64,000 nucleotides of DNA from Cellulomonas sp. KRMCY2 (GTDB taxonomy: Bacteria > Actinomycetota > Actinomycetes > Actinomycetales > Cellulomonadaceae): the NCBI RefSeq assembly GCF_000526515.1, contig NZ_JAGF01000001.1, positions 1,116,001-1,180,000 of the forward strand, in the 5' to 3' direction. Made by a program: the position numbers and the translations under genes. How positions within the stretch are numbered: the first letter of the stretch is position 1; each line of letters starts with the position of its first letter. The notes beneath the pieces are model-generated. The model was given only the letters and a program-made list of their open reading frames with translations. It ran no database searches and was not told where the DNA came from. Shown one piece after another: positions 12,284-22,126 of the stretch.

Positions 12284-12287
12284 GACG

Positions 12288-12377
12288 CGGAGGGCACGGG
12301 ATTCGAACCCGTGAGAACAGGGTCACCGCTCTAACGGTTTTCAAGACCGTCGCTTTCGGCCGCTCAGCCAGCCCTCC
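12288..12377 (-). tRNA. tRNA-Ser (anticodon TGA)
   Basis: A 90-nt class II tRNA: acceptor GGAGGGC/GCCCTCC with discriminator G, anticodon loop CTTGAAA (anticodon TGA) in a CGGT...ACCG stem, a long variable arm, and T loop GGTTCGAATCC. Confidence 0.95.
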
Positions 12378-12444: not shown

Positions 12445-12855
12445 TCAGGCATTCCACCAGCCGTCGGGCCGACCGGGCGTGACGACGGACAGGCCGTAGA
12501 TCGCCGCGACCCGGGCCAGCAGCGGGTCGTAGGTCGCGACCTGCTCGATCTCGGGGTGCGCCACCGCGATGCCGAGATGGATCGCACCGAACGGTGAGAG
12601 CACCGCGGCGGCCATCGCAGCGGACTTCAGCGACTGGTCGGAGAACCGCAGGATCGCGATCTTCGTGGCGATCTCGTGCGCCTTGCTCCGAGCGACCGAC
12701 CCGAGCGGGGCGGCGGCGTTGCGCAGCTCGGTCAGCCCGAGCGGCGAGGTCACGAGCTCTGCCGCATGCTGATCGGCCCAGCGCAGCCACGACGCCGACT
12801 CGACCCCGGTCGACAACGCCCGGCTCAGCGCCGAGCCGTCGGCGTAGATCAGCAT
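12445..12855 (-). CDS. PIN-domain protein without an adjacent antitoxin
   Basis: A 136-residue protein of VapC size. It begins MLIYADGSALSR, a PIN first strand with the catalytic Asp. A Glu follows at LGLTELRNAA, and there is a later acidic region (GIAVAHPEIEQVATYDPLLARVA) where the closing Asp belongs. All core acidic positions appear present, so it may be an active RNase. The 121 bases upstream do not encode an antitoxin, and the gene lies just downstream of the conservon and beside tRNA-Ser(TGA). It may be a solitary toxin, be neutralised by a remote antitoxin, or have another role. Confidence 0.72.
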   Translation of the reverse strand: MLIYADGSALSRALSTGVESASWLRWADQHAAELVTSPLGLTELRNAAAPLGSVARSKAHEIATKIAILRFSDQSLKSAAMAAAVLSPFGAIHLGIAVAHPEIEQVATYDPLLARVAAIYGLSVVTPGRPDGWWNA

Positions 12856-12976: not shown

Positions 12977-13585
12977 TCAGCCGCGAAGTCGCTCCATCGC
13001 GAGCTGGACCAGAGAGATCAGCGTCTGCTTGGTCGCTGCACGCGACCGGGCGTCCGTGTACATCAGCGGGACGTGCGCCGGCACCGACAGCGCCTCACGG
13101 ACGTCGTCGAGCTGGTGGCGCGCGACGCCGTCGAAGCAGTTGACCGCCACGACGAAGGGGATGCCGCGGCTCTCGAAGTAGTCGACGGCCGGGAAGCACT
13201 GGTCGAGGCGCTCGGTGTCGACGAGCACGACAGCACCGATCGCGCCGCGGACCAGGTCGTCCCACATGAACAGGAACCGGTCCTGGCCAGGTGTGCCGAA
13301 CAGGTACAGCCACAGCGACCCGGGCAGTGCGATACGACCGAAGTCCATCGCCACCGTCGTGGTGGTCTTGCGGTCCGTGACGCCACCGGCGTCGTCGACG
13401 CCGACCGAGTGCTCGGTCATGGCGGCTTCGGTGTTGAGCGGCTCGATGTCGGAGATCGAGCCGATGAACGTCGTCTTGCCGACAGCGAAGCCACCGGCGA
13501 CGACGATCTTGACAACCGTAGGTGCGACACCCCCGCCGACCGCACGGCGGTCGGTCACAGCGGTGTCAGAGGGCGGATATGCCAT
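12977..13585 (-). CDS. cvnD: Conservon GTP-binding protein CvnD
   Basis: Small Ras/MglA-like GTPase, last gene of the conservon. The P-loop GGFAVGKTT spans about residues 31-39, switch-region Thr residues follow, G3 is FGTPGQDRF and a G4-like NCFD appears later. In Streptomyces, conservon products form a membrane-linked signalling complex with a G-protein-like output. ATG 13585 has GGAG upstream; a GTG three codons earlier is an alternative. The start overlaps the DUF742 gene by about 20 bases. Length 202 is normal. Confidence 0.9.
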   Translation of the reverse strand: MAYPPSDTAVTDRRAVGGGVAPTVVKIVVAGGFAVGKTTFIGSISDIEPLNTEAAMTEHSVGVDDAGGVTDRKTTTTVAMDFGRIALPGSLWLYLFGTPGQDRFLFMWDDLVRGAIGAVVLVDTERLDQCFPAVDYFESRGIPFVVAVNCFDGVARHQLDDVREALSVPAHVPLMYTDARSRAATKQTLISLVQLAMERLRG

Positions 13586-13991
13586 TGAGAACACTCTCCA
13601 GCACGCTCAGGGACAGGGCGGGGGACTGGCCAGTGTGGACACTGACCGGGGTAGATGTGTGGACTCGGATGAATCCGGCTTCGGAGAGATCCGTGACCAG
13701 GACGCGGACGACGCCGAGTGGCAACCGCAGCAGTGCGGAGAGCTCGGCGACGGACACGAACGTGTGCGCCGCATGTTGCAGGATGGCGCGCTTCTCAGGT
13801 GGTAGGCCTTGGCCGCTGACCGCCCCCGGGAGGACCTCGACCAGCGCCTCGAGAGGCAGGTCGGAGTTCGCGGCGCGCACCCGGCCACCGGTCACCGCAT
13901 AGGGCCGGACGGTGCGGGCCTCGTACTCCGAGTCGTCGGCACCCAGGCCATGACGACCCGCGATACCGAAGGTCTCCTCGATGTTGGTCAT
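13566..13991 (-). CDS. cvnC: Conservon DUF742 protein CvnC
   Basis: A 141-residue protein with the DUF742 core (VRPYAVTGGR, then LPPEKRAILQ and LSALLRLPLGVVRVLVTDLSEAGFIRVH), which has a winged-helix-like look. Conservon C proteins are thought to work with the Roadblock protein and GTPase downstream of the kinase-like receptor. ATG 13991 is chosen because the extension to 14045 runs over the Roadblock gene. The seven-base spacing to cvnB and the overlap with cvnD indicate one transcript. Confidence 0.88.
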   Translation of the reverse strand: MTNIEETFGIAGRHGLGADDSEYEARTVRPYAVTGGRVRAANSDLPLEALVEVLPGAVSGQGLPPEKRAILQHAAHTFVSVAELSALLRLPLGVVRVLVTDLSEAGFIRVHTSTPVSVHTGQSPALSLSVLESVLNGISAL

Positions 13992-13998
13992 CTGGCGT

Positions 13999-14448
13999 TC
14001 ACCCGACCGGCGTCCGGACCGCACCGTCGACCGGCAGGTTGCCACGCATCTCCGTGACGAGCTGTGGTGTCAGGGTCGTCTCCGTACGGGACACGAGCAT
14101 GGCCATCTCGTAGCCGATCAGGCCCACGTCACACGTGGCCTCTGCGACCACCGCGAGCACCGAGCCGTTGGAGACGCTCATCAGGAAGACGAAGAGCTCG
14201 TCCATCTCGACGATCGCCTGCCGGACATCACCCGCATGCAGCTGACGCGCCGCACCTCGGGTGAGGCTCGACATCCCGGCCACGATGGCGGCGAGCTGGT
14301 CGCCGCTGGTGCGGTCCAGGTTCTCCGACATCGCCATGAGCAGACCGTCCGCCGAGACGACCAGCGTGTGCTGGGTGCCCGGTACGGTCTTGACGAAGTT
14401 GTCCAGTAGCCAGCCAAAGTTGGCTGCTTCTGAGCTGAGCGCTGTCAC
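13999..14448 (-). CDS. cvnB: Conservon Roadblock/LC7 protein CvnB
   Basis: A 149-residue Roadblock/LC7-fold protein (FGWLLDNFVKTVPGTQHTLVVSADGLLMAMS, later LFVFLMSVSNGSVLAVVAEATCDVGLIGYEM), the presumed GTPase-activating or scaffold partner of CvnD. The GTG at 14448 has GAGGAGG upstream and is preferred to 14493, which adds a Pro/Gly-rich stretch. It follows the kinase-like gene by 49 bases. Confidence 0.9.
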   Translation of the reverse strand: MTALSSEAANFGWLLDNFVKTVPGTQHTLVVSADGLLMAMSENLDRTSGDQLAAIVAGMSSLTRGAARQLHAGDVRQAIVEMDELFVFLMSVSNGSVLAVVAEATCDVGLIGYEMAMLVSRTETTLTPQLVTEMRGNLPVDGAVRTPVG

Positions 14449-14497
14449 GTGTCCTCCTCGAGGTTGCCGGCCTGGCGGCGGCTGGGGGTGCATGCGG

Positions 14498-17400
14498 TCA
14501 CCATGAGGTGCTCCGCTGGGTCAGGTCGGTGTCCGGCGTCGTCACGGGCTGTCCGTGATCGACGTCCGAACCGTCCTCGTTGCCGGCACGGCTCTCGCCG
14601 TTGCTGCCGGTGGCCTGGTGGGGCTGCCCCGCCGGGACCGTGCCGGGCTCGTCTGCGGCCTGCCGGCCACGACTCGTCCCGGACTGGAAGCTCGACAGGA
14701 GCGACCGGACCTGGTTGGCATCCCGCTCGGTGCGCTGCCCGACGGGCCGCCTCTCGATGGCGGGTGCCGCTGGGATGGCGTTCGGCGTACGGCGCACGAG
14801 TGTCGTCTGGCCGTCGCTCGAGGCCGCCTTCGGCCGGTAGGACGACAGCTGACTCAGCTCGGCGAGCGCCTGCTGGGCGATGTCGGCCCGCTGCGCCATC
14901 ATGCTCGTCACCTCGTCGTCGAACGACCCCGAGCTGGACTGCGGGGTGAACGACGTCGGGATCGAGAAGGGCGAGTGGTGCGGTGTCGGCACGACCGCCG
15001 TCGGCTCGGGTCGGCGGACCGGTGCCGGGGCCGACGGCGCTGCCGGGGCCTTGGCCGACCAGGCCGGTGTCGGGGCCCAGCCCGGCGACGGGGCAGGTGC
15101 CACGGGCGCGGCGGGGACGACCGGCGCCTGCGCCGGCGGCGCTGTCCACGCGGTCTGCGGCGTCCACACCGGCTCGGCCTGGACAGGTGCCTGAGCTGCC
15201 GGTTCGACCGGGGCCTGCCACGTGGGGACCTCGGCGACGCGAGGCTCGTCGGCCGGGGCGACCGGGACGGGCAGCGCGTGGACTCCGATGTCGGTGTTGT
15301 TCCACGCCGACTGACGCACCGGCGCGACGGACGGGAACCCGAGCGGCGGCGCGACGAACGGCTGCTGGATCGGCGCGGCGACCGGAGCCGCCTCGGCGGC
15401 GCGCTCGACGTCCCGCTTGGCGCGCTTGCGACCGAACAGACCCCGCCGCGGCTTGGCCGGCGCAGACGCTGACTGGTTGCTGCCCTGGACGAGCTCGGAG
15501 AAGGCGGGCGCCGCAGCGGGTGCGGGATCGGCGAGCCAGGCGGCTCCCGGCAGGACGGAGTCGGCCGGAGCGGCCGGGGCGACCTCGGCAGGCACGGCGA
15601 CCGGAGCCGGCGGCCATACGGCCTCGGGCTCGGGTGCGACCGGCGCGCGGGAGTCGGGAGCCCAGGGGGCCACCTCCTGGGGCGCCTGAACGGTCCACGG
15701 CTGTGCGTCGTCGACGTCCCAGGCGAGCGGCTGGACCGCCTGGCTGGGCTCGGCGGCCCAGTCGGGCTCGAGCACGGGGGTCGGCTGCGGGGTGCTCCAC
15801 GCCTCGACCTGCGGGGCCTGGACCGGCTCCGACGGCGCGTTCGGGTCGGCACCGGCCGGGGCGGCCGGCGGCCAGGCCGCGGCGTGTGCCGGCGCTGCGG
15901 GCATCCACGGGCCGTGGACCTCCGACTCGTCGAGCGGAAGAGCGTGCCGCGGGCTGCGCCGGGGCGCCGGGGCCACGACGGGCTCGGCGAACGCCGGGGC
16001 GGCCGCCTCGGCGACGCGCTCCACCGGCTGAGCTGCGACCGGTGGCGTTGCGAGCGGCTGCGTGGCGAAGGGCTGCGTTGCGAAGAGCCGCGGCGCGACC
16101 GGCTCGAAGGGCGCCGGCTCGGACGGAGCCGGCACGAAGGGCTGCCGCGCGGTGATCTGCGGAACGAACGGCTCGGCGGCGTCGTCGACCTGGGCGACCG
16201 GAGCCTGCGGGGCGAAGGCCGGGTCGCCGTACTCGGCGTCGTCGTCCACGAGGCTCGGGATCGCCATCGGCCCCGGGGCCGCCGGCTCGGCAGGCGTGTC
16301 GTGGTGGGCGTCCGGGTCGTGGCCGGTGCCCGTGTCGTGGCCTGCGCCCCGGCCGAAGAAGGCCGCTGCACCGGCGGCGGCGGCGGCGAGGCGCTCTGCC
16401 CCGTCGGACCCGTCGGCTCCGGTCGGGACGTCCGACCACGAGTCGCCGGTCTCGACGTGGACGGCTGCCGCGGCAAGCTCGGCACGGCGGGACCGGAAGC
16501 CGGAGAACATCGCGGCGCGACCCTCGGGCTCGGCGACCGGCGTCGACGTCGGTGCGGCGGCGGCCGCGACGGGCCCGGCGGGCTGGCGGGTCGGCAGCGA
16601 GCTGGCAGCGGGCGACCGCGACGGCAGCTCCGCTCCACCACGGCTCGGCAGAGGCGGCGCCTCGGCGTCGCCACCGCGCCGGGCCGACAGCGGTGCGGAC
16701 TGGACCACCTGCGGAGCCCATGCCTCGTCGGACGGGCTGGCGACCCCGGCGGCGCTGGCGAGGGCGTCGGCACTCGGCGCCAAGGGGATGGACGGTGCCG
16801 CAGCGGCATCGTCCTCCTCGCGCTGGAGCATGCTGGGCGCCGGTGCGTCGGCGTCGGCGCCACGCGAACGGCGGCGGGGCAGACCGCGGCCGGTCGCACC
16901 GTCGGTCAGCGCATCGAGGTCGACGGCCTCGGCCGGGTTCTCCGCCGAGCCCAGAGCGCCGGCAGCGACGTCCTGGACACCGGCCGGGGCCGGGGCGAAG
17001 GCGGTGTCGTGCACGACCTCGGCTGCCTCCTCGGGCAGCACGAAGGTCTCGACCCGCGCCGCCGGAGCGGTCGGCGGGGTCAGCGGGATGGAGCGCGGGT
17101 CGACGAACAGGACCCGCGGCATCCGGATGGTCACGAGCGTGCCTCGGCCGTCGGGCCCGGCGGTGAGGTCCGCTGAGGCACCGAGGCGGGCGGCGATCCG
17201 GCCGACCACGAACATGCCCAGGCGCTGGGAGCCGAGCACGTCGCCGGCGGACGTCTTGCGGATCTTGAGGTTGACCTCGACGAGCTCGTCCGGCGTCATG
17301 CCCAGACCCTGGTCGAGGATCGTGATGATCACGCTGTCCTCGTCGATGCCGGTCGAGACGTGCACGGGGGTGCCGGGCTCGGAGAACACCGTCGCGTTCT

Positions 17401-19018
17401 CCAGCAGCTCGGCCATCATGTGCGCGGCCGGCAGGGCCGTGTGCCCGAGCATCATCGGGTCGACCGGCAGGTCCAGCTGGACGCGCTCGTAGTGCTCGAT
17501 CTCGGACGAGGCGGTACGGATCACGTCGGAGAGCGGGAGCGTCTCGCGCAGCCGCCGGCCGGTGTCGATGCCGGCGAGCACGAGGAGGGACTCCGCGTTG
17601 CGGCGCATCCGGGTGGCGAGGTGGTCGAGGCGGAACAGGTCGGCGAGGGTCCTGGGGTCCTCTTCCGAGCGCTCCAGCGCATCGATGAAGGACAGCTGCC
17701 GGTTGAGCAGGACCTGGTCGCGACGGGCCACGTTGACGAACATCTCGGCGATGGACCCACGCAGGGCTGCCTGCTCCTGGGCCACCTGGATGGTCGTCGA
17801 GTTCACCTCGTTGAAGGCCGCGGCGAGCTGGCCGATCTCGTCCCTGCTGACCACCGGGATGTGCGTCAGGGTCAGGTCGGGGCCCTGGCCGGGGATGGCC
17901 ACCTGGTCGACCAGTCGTGGCAGCTCGTCGCGGACCATGGCGGCGGCCTCGGTCAGGCGCCGCAGCGGGTTGATGATCTGACGCGCGATGGCGAGGGCCG
18001 CCATGACGGACAGGATGAGCGCGGCGGTGGCACCACCGATGGTCACGACACTGGTCCGCAGGGCGGCAGCCGCGACGGCGCTCGCTCGGGTGGCCGCAGC
18101 CTGGCGGAGCTCGGCCGCCACGGGCTCGAAGGCCTCGATCTCAGCGGTGGCGGCGACGGTCCATGCGGCGGAGTCGATGAAGTCGAAGTTCTGGGTGTCA
18201 CCGGTGGACATCAGGGTCCGGTAGCTGTCGTACGACTGGAAGCCGTTGAACGAGGCACCCAGCGGCGGCAGCAGCACGCTGTCGCCCAGGTCGAGGGCTC
18301 GGATCGTGGTGTCGGTCTGCGAGTGCGAGATCTTGGAGGCCGGGAACAGCTGCGCGAGGGAGAGGAACTGCGCGGGCTCACGGGCTCCGTCGAGGATCTC
18401 GACACCCAGCGCCTGCTCCTGGTTGTAGTCCTCGACCAGCGACGTCAGCTCGGCGTTGGCGGAGATCACTGTCGCGAGACGCCGGTCGTCGAGCTGGTCG
18501 GCGACCTGCTTGGGGAAGGAGACGACGTCGTCGATCACGCCGGTGTAGTTGGCGTTGATCGCGCTCATCGGGACGTTCTGGGCGTCGATCCGCCCGCGCA
18601 CACCCTCAAGGCCCTGCAGCGCGCTGCGCATGTCGCGAACGGCGTTGGCGATCAGGATGTCGAGGGAGTCGAAGTCGACGTTCGAGACGGCCTGGCTGAA
18701 CTGGACGATCGAGTCGGTGGTGACCTGCCGGGACGAGTCGACCTCGGGCCGCAGGTCGGATGCGCTGGGCAGACCGGCGGGGCGGTTCTCGTCCGTGCTC
18801 GCGCTCGTGTACGGCAGCGCGGCCCGACGCTCGGCCTGGAGCGCGGTGACGACCTCACGCGACTCCTGCAGAACATTGAGCAGGGTGGTGACCGTCCGCG
18901 CCGTCTGCGCCTCCTGGATGGACTGCCACGAGACGAGGCCGGCCAAGAGGGTCAGGACGAGCACAGGCACGGAGAGGGCTGCGAGAACCTTCCCGCGAAT
19001 GCCCAACCTGCGAAGCAT
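14498..19018 (-). CDS. cvnA: Conservon sensor histidine kinase-like protein CvnA with a very long Ala/Pro-rich tail
   Basis: Membrane receptor of the conservon. ATG 19018 has GAAGGAGAG upstream. Order: membrane helix at 10-31, a nitrate/nitrite-sensing-type helical ectodomain to about 320, second membrane helix about 321-345, HAMP linker, then an HATPase domain about 525-650 (MMAELLENATVFSEPG, DQGLGM, RLGMFVVGRIAARLGA). No classical phospho-acceptor HisKA helix is evident, as usual for conservon receptors. From about 655 to 1506 the chain is low-complexity Ala/Pro/Val with short charged islands (RRGLFGRKRAKRD) and ends in a conserved-looking motif RDANQVRSLLSSFQSGTSRGR. The protein is roughly twice the usual length because of this tail, which is presumably disordered. 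Confidence 0.9.
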   Translation of the reverse strand: MLRRLGIRGKVLAALSVPVLVLTLLAGLVSWQSIQEAQTARTVTTLLNVLQESREVVTALQAERRAALPYTSASTDENRPAGLPSASDLRPEVDSSRQVTTDSIVQFSQAVSNVDFDSLDILIANAVRDMRSALQGLEGVRGRIDAQNVPMSAINANYTGVIDDVVSFPKQVADQLDDRRLATVISANAELTSLVEDYNQEQALGVEILDGAREPAQFLSLAQLFPASKISHSQTDTTIRALDLGDSVLLPPLGASFNGFQSYDSYRTLMSTGDTQNFDFIDSAAWTVAATAEIEAFEPVAAELRQAAATRASAVAAAALRTSVVTIGGATAALILSVMAALAIARQIINPLRRLTEAAAMVRDELPRLVDQVAIPGQGPDLTLTHIPVVSRDEIGQLAAAFNEVNSTTIQVAQEQAALRGSIAEMFVNVARRDQVLLNRQLSFIDALERSEEDPRTLADLFRLDHLATRMRRNAESLLVLAGIDTGRRLRETLPLSDVIRTASSEIEHYERVQLDLPVDPMMLGHTALPAAHMMAELLENATVFSEPGTPVHVSTGIDEDSVIITILDQGLGMTPDELVEVNLKIRKTSAGDVLGSQRLGMFVVGRIAARLGASADLTAGPDGRGTLVTIRMPRVLFVDPRSIPLTPPTAPAARVETFVLPEEAAEVVHDTAFAPAPAGVQDVAAGALGSAENPAEAVDLDALTDGATGRGLPRRRSRGADADAPAPSMLQREEDDAAAAPSIPLAPSADALASAAGVASPSDEAWAPQVVQSAPLSARRGGDAEAPPLPSRGGAELPSRSPAASSLPTRQPAGPVAAAAAPTSTPVAEPEGRAAMFSGFRSRRAELAAAAVHVETGDSWSDVPTGADGSDGAERLAAAAAGAAAFFGRGAGHDTGTGHDPDAHHDTPAEPAAPGPMAIPSLVDDDAEYGDPAFAPQAPVAQVDDAAEPFVPQITARQPFVPAPSEPAPFEPVAPRLFATQPFATQPLATPPVAAQPVERVAEAAAPAFAEPVVAPAPRRSPRHALPLDESEVHGPWMPAAPAHAAAWPPAAPAGADPNAPSEPVQAPQVEAWSTPQPTPVLEPDWAAEPSQAVQPLAWDVDDAQPWTVQAPQEVAPWAPDSRAPVAPEPEAVWPPAPVAVPAEVAPAAPADSVLPGAAWLADPAPAAAPAFSELVQGSNQSASAPAKPRRGLFGRKRAKRDVERAAEAAPVAAPIQQPFVAPPLGFPSVAPVRQSAWNNTDIGVHALPVPVAPADEPRVAEVPTWQAPVEPAAQAPVQAEPVWTPQTAWTAPPAQAPVVPAAPVAPAPSPGWAPTPAWSAKAPAAPSAPAPVRRPEPTAVVPTPHHSPFSIPTSFTPQSSSGSFDDEVTSMMAQRADIAQQALAELSQLSSYRPKAASSDGQTTLVRRTPNAIPAAPAIERRPVGQRTERDANQVRSLLSSFQSGTSRGRQAADEPGTVPAGQPHQATGSNGESRAGNEDGSDVDHGQPVTTPDTDLTQRSTSW

Positions 19019-20266: not shown

Positions 20267-21499
20267 TCAGGCCAGGAGGCCGCGAGCCAGCCCCGGGGCG
20301 AGCACCGGGGCGAGCGGGAGCCTGGGGATGAGCGTCGCCTGGACCGTGTGGTAGAGGTCGGCCTTGCCGGCCCAGACCGTCCGTGAGACCTCGTTGTCCG
20401 TGCCGAGCTCGTGCCACCACGAGCCGCCGTCGAGGTCGATCAGGTGCTCGGCCGCGTAGTCCCACCAGGTCCGGTACCAGACGTCGAACCGCCCGTCCCC
20501 GGTGACCGCGAACAGCGCTGCAGCGGCGCCCAGCGCCTCGCACAGCACCCAGTGCATGCGCTCACGCACGACCGGCCGGCCCGACCAGTCGACGGTGTAG
20601 ACGAAGCCGGGCGCGCCGTCGACGTCCCAGCCCTGGGCGACGGCCGCGTCGAACAGGCCGACGGCGTCCTCGACCATCCACGCGGGGACGTCCGCACCGG
20701 TCGCCTGGAGCGCGGCCCGCACGTGCAGCGCGAGCCGAGCCCACTCGAGCCAGTGCCCGATCGTCGCGCCGTACGGGCGGAACGGATGAGCCGGGGCATC
20801 GGCGTTGTACTCGAGCAACGGCCGCCACTCGGCGTCGAAGTGCTCGGGGATCCGCCACGCGTTACCCCGGGCGAGCTCGTGCACGACGCGCTCGGTGATC
20901 CGGGCCGCGCGGTGGAGCCATGCGGCGTCCCCGGTGACGTCCGCTGCCGCGAGGTACGCCTCGACCGTGTGCATGTTGGCGTTGACGCCGCGGTAGTCCT
21001 CGGTCGTGGTGAACGTGCGGTCCCAGGACTCGACGACCATGCCTGCGTCCTCGTCCCAGAAGTGACCCAGCGACACGTCGAGCGCCTCGTCGAGGAGGGC
21101 ACGCGCCCCGGGGCGACCGGCTGCGGCCGCACTGGCGGTCGCCAGGATCACGAAGGCGTGCGGGTAGGCGCCCTTGTCCACCTCGGTCGGTCCGTCCGGG
21201 CCGACGGCGGCGAACCACCCGCCGTGCTCGGTGTCGCGGAACCGGCCGGCCAGGGCCGCGAGCCCGTGGTCGGCGAGCGCGCCACAGCCGGGGCGGCCGA
21301 GCAGCGCGCCGAGGGCGAACACGTAGGTCATCCGGCAGGTGATCCACAGCTCGGTCGGCCGGTCCGCCTCGAGGGCACCGTGCTCGTCGAGCCAGCCGAA
21401 GCCACCGGCCGGGACACGCGCCGCACGGCCGAAGCCCAGCAGCCGGTCGGTCTCCGCCTCGAGCCAGCGGTGGTGGGCGGCGGACGCGAGCCAGGTCAT
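20267..21499 (-). CDS. AGE-family sugar epimerase/isomerase
   Basis: Cytoplasmic (alpha/alpha)6-barrel enzyme of the N-acylglucosamine 2-epimerase superfamily. Many such members interconvert mannose/fructose/glucose rather than N-acyl sugars. Signature blocks are LWITCRMTYVFALGAL, DKGAYPHAFVILA, GVNANMHTVEAYLAA (catalytic-type His), PYGATIGHWLEWARLAL (second His) and NEVSRTVWAGKADLYHTVQA. The last two are typical of the D-mannose isomerase / mannose 2-epimerase branch. ATG 21499 has GGAGA upstream; 410 residues is the usual length. It stands alone, divergent from bpa. The exact substrate needs assay. Confidence 0.88.
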   Translation of the reverse strand: MTWLASAAHHRWLEAETDRLLGFGRAARVPAGGFGWLDEHGALEADRPTELWITCRMTYVFALGALLGRPGCGALADHGLAALAGRFRDTEHGGWFAAVGPDGPTEVDKGAYPHAFVILATASAAAAGRPGARALLDEALDVSLGHFWDEDAGMVVESWDRTFTTTEDYRGVNANMHTVEAYLAAADVTGDAAWLHRAARITERVVHELARGNAWRIPEHFDAEWRPLLEYNADAPAHPFRPYGATIGHWLEWARLALHVRAALQATGADVPAWMVEDAVGLFDAAVAQGWDVDGAPGFVYTVDWSGRPVVRERMHWVLCEALGAAAALFAVTGDGRFDVWYRTWWDYAAEHLIDLDGGSWWHELGTDNEVSRTVWAGKADLYHTVQATLIPRLPLAPVLAPGLARGLLA

Positions 21500-21607
21500 C
21501 GGTTCTCCAGGGAACGAGCGCGACGCCGTGCGCCGCAGAGGTGGTCCAGCGAGGCTGTGCCACACCGTACCCGGCGGCGAGTGCACCGTGCGGGGACAAT
21601 GGTTCCC

Positions 21608-22126
21608 ATGAGCACCGACAGCGACCGCGACCGCGCCCCGCAGGACCCGACGCCGCACGACCAGGACCAGGCGGAGACGGCGCCCGACGCCACCTTCGTC
21701 GGGCAGCCGGCCAAGGTGATGCGGATCGGCACGATGGTCAAGCAGCTGCTCGAGGAGGTACGCAGCGCGCCGCTGGACGAGGCCGCCCGAGGCCGGCTCG
21801 CCGAAGTCCACGACCGGTCGCTGCGCGAGCTCGAGGACGGCCTGTCACCCGACCTGGTCGCCGAGCTGCGTCGGATCACGCTGCCGTTCCCCGACGACAC
21901 GAGCCCGAGCGAGGCCGAGCTCCGCGTCGCACAGGCCCAGCTCGTCGGCTGGCTCGAAGGCCTGTTCCACGGGCTGCAGACCGCCCTGGTCGCCCAGCAG
22001 ATGGCGACCCAGGCCCAGCTGGCCCAGATGCGCCGCGCGCTGCCGCCAGGGGTCACGGTCCAGCTCGGGCAGCCCGGCGCGGAGCCCGACCAGGACCAGC
22101 GCCGCGCCCCCGGCCAGTACCTCTGA
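21608..22126 (+). CDS. bpa: Bacterial proteasome activator Bpa (DUF2587)
   Basis: ATP-independent ring activator of the 20S proteasome. The family core is visible (PAKVMRIGTMVKQLLEEVRSAPLDEAARGRLAEVHDRSLREL, then SEAELRVAQAQLVGWLEGLFHGLQ). The protein ends in GQYL, the C-terminal motif that docks into the proteasome alpha-ring. At 172 residues it matches the family. The N-terminal 35 residues are acidic and probably disordered. An in-frame ATG at 21599 is an alternative start. Its presence predicts 20S proteasome genes elsewhere in the genome; none are in this window. Confidence 0.9.
   Translation: MSTDSDRDRAPQDPTPHDQDQAETAPDATFVGQPAKVMRIGTMVKQLLEEVRSAPLDEAARGRLAEVHDRSLRELEDGLSPDLVAELRRITLPFPDDTSPSEAELRVAQAQLVGWLEGLFHGLQTALVAQQMATQAQLAQMRRALPPGVTVQLGQPGAEPDQDQRRAPGQYL

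Follow-up and report, generated by a model that had tools for sequence, protein, structure and literature searches.

What might a bacterial sensor kinase do with a low-complexity tail that makes up more than half of its length? The question is raised by a conservon (cvn) operon of Cellulomonas sp. KRMCY2, which lies on the minus strand of the 64,000-nucleotide stretch analysed here (contig NZ_JAGF01000001.1, positions 1,116,001 to 1,180,000 of the forward strand; hereafter the window). An initial annotation of the window had described its kinase, CvnA, as carrying a long tether with a sticky end, either a scaffold or a condensate-forming tail that recruits CvnB, CvnC and CvnD to the membrane. 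We find that the tail contains conserved islands and, close to its end, a bipartite module that occurs phylum-wide and, in genes with a strong kinase core, goes together with the roadblock gene cvnB; both observations support a tether with a sticky end. It is reasonably likely that the tail is a flexible, membrane-anchored tether whose terminal module docks on the roadblock protein CvnB, and the scaffold interpretation is in this sense partly supported and sharpened to CvnB.

The kinase is assigned to CvnA on two grounds: a sensor part, HAMP and HATPase are combined in one membrane protein (Pfam), and downstream of its gene come those for a roadblock protein, a DUF742 protein and a small GTPase, in conservon order. 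The four genes are as follows.

14501..19018, minus strand: cvnA, 1506 amino acids (aa), with two apparent membrane segments (read from sequence) flanking a NIT sensor domain, then HAMP, HATPase and a long tail
13999..14493, minus strand: cvnB, roadblock/LC7 protein, the proposed docking partner of the module (PF03259, E 5.8e-22)
13566..14045, minus strand: cvnC, DUF742 (PF05331, E 5.2e-26)
12977..13594, minus strand: cvnD, small GTPase (PF03029, E 6.2e-28)

The open reading frame (ORF) of cvnA likely starts at ATG 19018, downstream of GAAGGAGAGACC, which is a good ribosome site, and ends with the stop codon at 14498-14500. Its Pfam matches are NIT at aa 55-306 (E 2.8e-18; the single NIT match found in the genome of the window), HAMP at 344-404 (1e-9) and HATPase_c at 531-635 (6.5e-10), and the Pfam scan of CvnA gave no domain past aa 635. 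In NCBIfam all matches were below cut-off, including TIGR00231 in cvnD, which also matched GTP_EFTU and Ras in Pfam, more weakly and below their cut-offs.

What follows the HATPase domain is one long feature.

14501..17101, minus strand: low-complexity, probably disordered C-terminal tail, aa 640-1506 (composition; free of Pfam matches past aa 635)

Taken from aa 640, the tail comprises 867 aa, or 58% of CvnA (869 aa with a start at aa 638), and only 9 of 158 homologue tails are longer. Alanine accounts for 22% and proline for 16% of it, and 85% is of low complexity by a SEG-like entropy measure, against 29% of aa 1-640. The initial estimate of about 850 low-complexity residues, over half of the protein, was therefore accurate, although the tail begins at 17101, about 40 bases before the 17060 given at the time. 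Disorder is likely from the sequence but not agreed between two measures, because the TOP-IDP mean is higher in the tail than in the core (0.23 versus 0.08) while on a FoldIndex-type charge-hydropathy scale the tail remains just above zero (0.09; 0.22 in the core) and is not called unfolded. The disorder prediction proposed in the initial annotation was thus borne out by the first measure and not by the second. For the spacer, as for the tail as a whole, we infer disorder.

The tail is, as a correction to the earlier description, not uniform. Its alignment with the tails of 15 relatives reveals conserved islands within a poorly conserved spacer.

16850..16936, minus strand: island 1, aa 695-723, VDLxALTDGxTxxGLPRRR in the clade, with the first LPRR motif (mean column conservation 0.76 over 16 clade tails)
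16583..16657, minus strand: stretch with LPSR, LPSR and LPTR, aa 788-812 (sequence)
16472..16522, minus strand: island 2, aa 833-849, MFSGFRSRRAEL, box-like (mean column conservation 0.73)
15422..15451, minus strand: island 3, basic RRGLFGRK within aa 1190-1199 (clade tail alignment)
14825..14917, minus strand: helix island (YRP helix), aa 1368-1398, DDEVTSMMAQRADIAQQALAELSQLSSYRP, also written DDEV...LAQRADIAQQALAELSQLSSYRP (mean conservation 0.81)
14768..14800, minus strand: LxRR half of the module, aa 1407-1417, LVRRTPNAIP, in the clade LxRRTPxAIPAAPE (tail alignments; the clade island spans 1408-1417)
14663..14725, minus strand: helix-box half of the module, aa 1432-1452, RDANQVRSLLSSFQSGTSRGR (position-specific matrix and alignments; the clade island spans 1431-1454)

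Two short, weaker conserved blocks lie at aa 743-752, and LPxR motifs ahead of the box number 427 in 158 tails, where shuffled tails average 29. The helix island, which in the window's clade precedes the module, is modelled by AlphaFold2 as a helix in same-genus relatives, with a predicted local distance difference test score (pLDDT) of about 80-91.

The module itself consists of the LxRR segment and the 21-residue helix-box (hereafter the box). The initial annotation had taken the latter for the end of the tail, whereas 54 CvnA residues lie C-terminal of it. The last of these, TTPDTDLTQRSTSW (14501-14542), are kept in five of the ten nearest relatives and partly in a sixth, and are separate from the box. 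In the module alignment the L and the last R of LxRR are invariant (37 of 37 rows); LxRR stands 20-39 residues ahead of the box in 142 of 158 homologues, and five of the 158 have no LxRR. The consensus of the box is R-(D/S)-(P/A)-(E/D)-x-V-R-x-R-L-S-x-(F/L)-(Q/R)-x-G-x-x-(R/Q)-G-R, with conservation of 92% at R7, 83% at L10, 84% at G16, 85% at G20 and 89% at R21. The window's own box has four Arg, one Asp and no Glu.

This composition raises the possibility that LxRR and box form a basic amphipathic helix that binds the membrane and pins the tail to the inner leaflet. The helix is Arg-rich in sequence and is modelled as a helix by AlphaFold2, its amphipathicity being judged by eye. Positional conservation of G16, G20 and R21, the near-fixed spacing of the two halves and the link to cvnB described below would be unexpected for a simple lipid anchor, and we consider this explanation very unlikely.

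How widespread the box is was addressed with a position-specific matrix, seeded with the boxes of 16 relatives and then iterated, at a threshold of 7.09 bits. The CvnA relatives came from 59 related genomes, from contigs of named genomes (the best 79 loci, leaning to close relatives) and from phylum and class samples, whose regions were hand-picked among the matches listed, partly for short frames in a search for genes without partners. Of 776 tails that had been shuffled or reversed, not one rose above the threshold, and 177 of the 195 CvnA-like ORFs that end in a stop codon did, this set being redundant and the matrix having been iterated on those same tails. After reduction at 80% identity the box is present in 158 of 175 CvnA-like genes, and in 186 of 222 once 47 later genes are added; the latter were not used in matrix training, and only repeats with identical last 60 residues were removed among them. 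The box is found in Streptomyces, Nonomuraea, Pseudonocardia, Lentzea, Dactylosporangium and others, in tails whose length is free to vary from about 100 aa (99 aa in L062, at 40 bits; 105 aa in L202) to 970 aa; a weak case, L168, has a tail of 40 aa. Conservation of the motif across CvnA proteins, the check that the initial annotation had asked for, is thus found phylum-wide and in tails of very different length.

A profile of the whole module gave a match at 0.01 in 16 of 18 genomes searched, several of which had supplied profile rows. At E ≤3.8e-5 there were 42 matches, of which 41 lie in CvnA ORFs, including two within one G130 gene, and the remaining one lies in a 163-aa ORF at a contig edge. 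Nine matches were weaker (1.6e-4 to 0.009), in a range where some hits should arise by chance; two of them fell into CvnA ORFs and seven elsewhere. As far as searched, in these 18 genomes, the module is specific to CvnA. When each of the 37 module rows was compared with Pfam up to E 1, the window's row had no match and five families matched one row each (best 0.0094); Pfam is without an entry for the module. A description of it was likewise not found in the passages seen of the open-licence literature on conservons. This suggests an apparently undescribed conserved module within a known protein family, similar to roadblock-docking tails.

If the module serves a conservon partner, its presence might be expected to follow that of the partner's gene. 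Partner genes were sought on the same strand within 3.5 kb downstream, and CvnA-like genes were divided into those with a strong kinase core (above 280 bits) and divergent paralogues (60-280 bits); three genes at contig ends (L096, L215 and L216) were left out. Among strong-core genes, the box is present in 162 of 165 with cvnB and in 4 of 15 without it (Fisher 3.9e-12, kinship ignored). The same holds for strong-core genes outside matrix training (22 of 23 with cvnB, 2 of 9 without) and for those that have cvnC (156 of 159 with cvnB, 4 of 11 without), and strong-core genes with cvnB but without cvnD carry the box in eight of nine cases. The three box-less strong-core genes with cvnB are L083 and L139, with frameshifted-looking tails, and L262, with a degenerate box. 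The tails of L083 and L139 end in Arg-rich, out-of-frame-looking sequence, probably through frameshifts or sequencing errors; both genes were counted as box-less in the comparison with cvnB and left out of the tree.

The median strong-core tail measures 475 aa with cvnB and 85 aa without it, which bears on the idea that the tail is a functionless, neutral by-product of high GC content through expansion of Ala and Pro codons. The region is 75-81% GC and most of the spacer is poorly conserved, as such an origin would predict. Conserved islands, a phylum-wide box and short tails where cvnB is absent contradict it for the islands, so that it holds at most for the spacer, and as an account of the tail we give it almost no credence.

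The co-occurrence also bears on a role of the box within CvnA, in which it would fold back on the DHp/HATPase part and restrain the kinase until CvnB displaces it. A helix on a flexible tether beside a kinase could act in this way, and there are a dozen box-bearing CvnA proteins with tails of just 99-138 aa. However, 11 of the 15 strong-core CvnA without cvnB have no box despite their kept kinase core, and this role seems improbable.

Kinship was considered with a quick tree of kinase cores (178 rows thinned to 88), on which the presence of cvnB changes nine times and that of the box seven times. The group without cvnB and box accounts for at least six changes on this tree, at least four being forced by well-supported branches. 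In five independent pairs the box tracks cvnB in three to four, opposes it in none in most pairings (in one in a few), and the rest are equal.

A predicted structure points to the same partner. The module of a same-genus relative (L050) was joined to its CvnB in one AlphaFold2 chain, with in-frame stop codons read as glycine and an alignment of 104 rows. The model has a mean pLDDT of 80.9 and a predicted template modelling score (pTM) of 0.62, with helices predicted at 11-37 (the YRP helix) and 78-99 (the box; block means 92 and 87) and CvnB at about 96. If CvnB alone were placed (136-146 of 307 residues), arithmetic with the TM-score formula, assuming errors of 1-2.5 Å inside the domain and at least 20 Å outside it, gives an estimated pTM of 0.43-0.51. 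The model exceeds this estimate, as if roughly 35-60 residues beyond CvnB were also positioned against it. In a control, the corresponding module of L059 joined to CvnC (33-row alignment) reached a pTM of 0.35, close to the CvnC-only estimate of 0.30-0.33 from the same arithmetic. For residues 41-80, from LxRR to box, the pLDDT block means are 66, 67, 72 and 81 with CvnB and 51, 46, 46 and 68 with CvnC; the first helix scores alike in both models, and the box helix is slightly lower in the control (89, 76). AlphaFold2 confidence thus favours CvnB over CvnC as the surface on which the module packs. In fold searches, the CvnB part of the model matched roadblock structures, the best being 3kye of Streptomyces avermitilis (Z 17.4, 119 aligned residues, root-mean-square deviation 1.4), together with MglB and Ragulator chains; only this part was matched, so the searches say nothing on the fold of the module.

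Several observations weigh against docking on CvnB. The sign test over independent pairs has a median p of 0.125, on a quick tree, and with so few pairs it cannot reach 0.05. The link to cvnB is not seen in divergent paralogues, where the box is present in 16 of 34 genes with cvnB and in three of five without, although several of those failing the threshold retain a fragment such as RFAAFRQAGGRGR. All 15 strong-core genes without cvnB also have no downstream cvnD, which confounds CvnD with CvnB. Four strong-core cvnA-cvnC loci keep the box without an adjacent cvnB (L131, L197 and L213 at over 44 bits, L253 at 35.5 bits), L131 having a cvnB elsewhere in its locus. The structural contrast consists of pTM and pLDDT only, compares different loci with alignments of 104 and 33 rows, and leaves the two module helices with similar scores. 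Finally, a distance-matrix regression over 127 operons (module against core, CvnB, CvnC and CvnD) gave the largest coefficient to CvnC (0.66) and -0.19 to CvnB, and mutual information was unusable, being dominated by kinship at an effective 34 sequences; neither of these coevolution tests decides the partner.

Some of these points would fit a module that docks on CvnC (DUF742), or on a joint surface of CvnB and CvnC, and not on CvnB itself. The regression favours CvnC, the same four loci adjoin cvnC, and an interaction between CvnA9 and CvnC9 is reported (PMC8510531). Set against this are the box counts among strong-core genes with cvnC, 4 of 11 where cvnB is missing and 156 of 159 where both are present, and the control model, whose pTM lies little above the CvnC-only value and whose pLDDT is low between LxRR and box. 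On balance we regard docking on CvnC as unlikely. Of the recruitment of CvnB, CvnC and CvnD that was initially proposed, the part concerning CvnB finds support in the strong-core counts; for CvnC and CvnD it is not shown, given that only a minority of genes with cvnC but no cvnB keep the box and that there is little packing on CvnC, though the regression favours CvnC. Homologues lacking the motif, to which the initial annotation had pointed as the telling case, give a divided answer: box-less strong-core homologues mostly have no cvnB (11 of 14), while among the 34 divergent paralogues with cvnB a box cannot be recognised in 18, so that some systems may work without one.

Apart from this comparison, the collection contains shortened conservons in which cvnA is followed by cvnC with no adjacent cvnB or cvnD (tails of 41-196 aa): L131, L196, L197, L200, L213, L214, L224, L225, L226, L230 and L253. 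In six further CvnA-like kinases no conservon partner was found in the stretch examined, and partners may lie elsewhere; L157, L209, L212 and L223 have no box, and L210 and L220 have a strong one.

A condensate-forming scaffold, in which Trp-rich spacers would act as stickers and bring many CvnA-D complexes together at the membrane, is compatible with docking on CvnB. Tryptophan makes up 2.15% of the window's tail ahead of the box, 4.03% in L074, 3.78% in L053 and, at the lowest in the clade, 1.11% in L051; in 142 other homologues the median for the tail is 0.7%. Its retention within the genus, at 0.67 of comparisons, exceeds that of most residues (Leu 0.77, Pro 0.72, Ser 0.35). Nevertheless, the spacing of Trp is significantly more regular than random in none of 16 clade tails, and the 142 other homologues, with shorter tails (median 398 versus 894 aa) that are Trp-poor by median, carry the same box, so that Trp-richness would be an add-on of the lineage. 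Regularly placed Trp stickers were rejected for want of significant regularity, and "Trp-rich" alone was retained as a description. The richness in Trp allows a clustering role without showing one, and we consider a condensate unlikely. Trp-rich degenerate repeats (QPWAP, PAWEA and QSWDE in relatives) are seen at 15400-16500 of the window and in the tails of L053, L059 and L074, and vary between close relatives.

For completeness, a PIN-domain protein is encoded directly after cvnD (12448-12855, minus strand), and beyond it lies a tRNA-Ser (tga) at 12287-12377. On the plus strand, at 20411-22123, a long open frame matches the bacterial proteasome activator in its C-terminal part (BPA, Pfam, 2.1e-73), the true start probably lying downstream of the frame's beginning. 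The genome has a second, marginal DUF742 match (27.2 bits, cut-off 27) in a 285-aa frame (L002, G000:C1:4077437-4077670).

With docking on CvnB as the favoured reading, CvnA would sense through its NIT domain while fixed in the membrane, and the module would fold onto CvnB and hold this regulator of the GTPase at the sensor. Through CvnB, CvnD and possibly CvnC would be held there as well, and the action of CvnB on CvnD would take place at the sensor, the spacer between core and module mainly setting the reach. Passages of PMC8510531 cite two-hybrid contacts of CvnA9 with CvnB9 as well as with CvnC9, the site on CvnA not being stated in those passages, and an ATPase activity is reported for CvnA9. 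For relatives in the mycobacterial mfp operon, excerpts of a 2026 paper describe a GTPase-activating (GAP) activity of MfpD, the relative of CvnB, and a likely guanine nucleotide exchange factor (GEF) role of MfpC (PMC13343842).

The same excerpts call the signal path from sensor to GTPase in conservon systems poorly understood (PMC13343842). A short, alignable and phylum-wide element of CvnA that is tied to the roadblock gene offers a direct, testable site of about 50 residues for this connection, and the tail probably supplies the link that is missing from sensor to GTPase switch. The module may also extend to the mycobacterial mfp operon.

How does CvnA compare with known systems? In domain order and in its cvnA-cvnB-cvnC-cvnD operon, the window's protein is like the CvnA of conservons, the actinobacterial G protein systems that include Cvn1-13 of S. 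coelicolor and the mycobacterial MfpE. It differs from conservon CvnA as published in the module, which the passages seen do not describe; unstructured terminal regions are mentioned for CvnA8 (excerpts of PMC13343842), and the terms C-terminal, tail and disordered were not found in the main text of PMC8510531.

Outside the conservons, the nearest parallel is RomR of Myxococcus xanthus, in which, according to passages of two papers, the C-terminal helix that comes after a disordered, proline-rich region docks on the roadblock dimer MglC, with binding at 2.6 nM (PMC12719032, PMC10329633). Both are signalling proteins with a proline-rich region and a C-terminal helix, the docking being measured for RomR and proposed for CvnA. 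The linker of CvnA is proline-rich and of low complexity and its box is modelled as a helix, yet its FoldIndex-type value is positive. RomR has a receiver domain, whereas CvnA is a membrane kinase with no receiver domain among its Pfam matches, and the helix of RomR is Glu-rich whereas the box of CvnA is Arg-rich; the two are likened by description and not by sequence.

A second parallel is p18/LAMTOR1, in excerpts of PMC5680233 a membrane-anchored chain that wraps the roadblock dimers of Ragulator and brings small GTPases to the membrane. CvnA can be read as such a membrane-anchored chain holding a roadblock protein, and the CvnB model matches Ragulator chains; however, p18 is eukaryotic, lipid-anchored and free of a kinase, CvnA has two apparent membrane helices, and the likeness is one of arrangement. 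A possible, though rather unlikely, extension is that CvnA is a bacterial counterpart of p18: its disordered tail would wind around several roadblock dimers and concentrate the GTPase machinery beneath the membrane in a Trp-rich, multivalent cluster, and sensing would then alter how roadblock and GTPase meet. The tail might do so through the YRP helix and the terminal box together with an internal FSGFR element and the LPRR segments near either end. A further pairing of a chain with a roadblock protein is the dynein intermediate chain with the LC7 roadblock (PDB 3l9k). By analogy, the best reading is that the CvnA module works like RomR and p18 while being a member of neither family, because it has no receiver domain, an Arg-rich and not a Glu-rich helix, and no demonstrated sequence relation to them. 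If true, CvnA would join RomR and p18 as an example of a flexible chain that holds a roadblock dimer.

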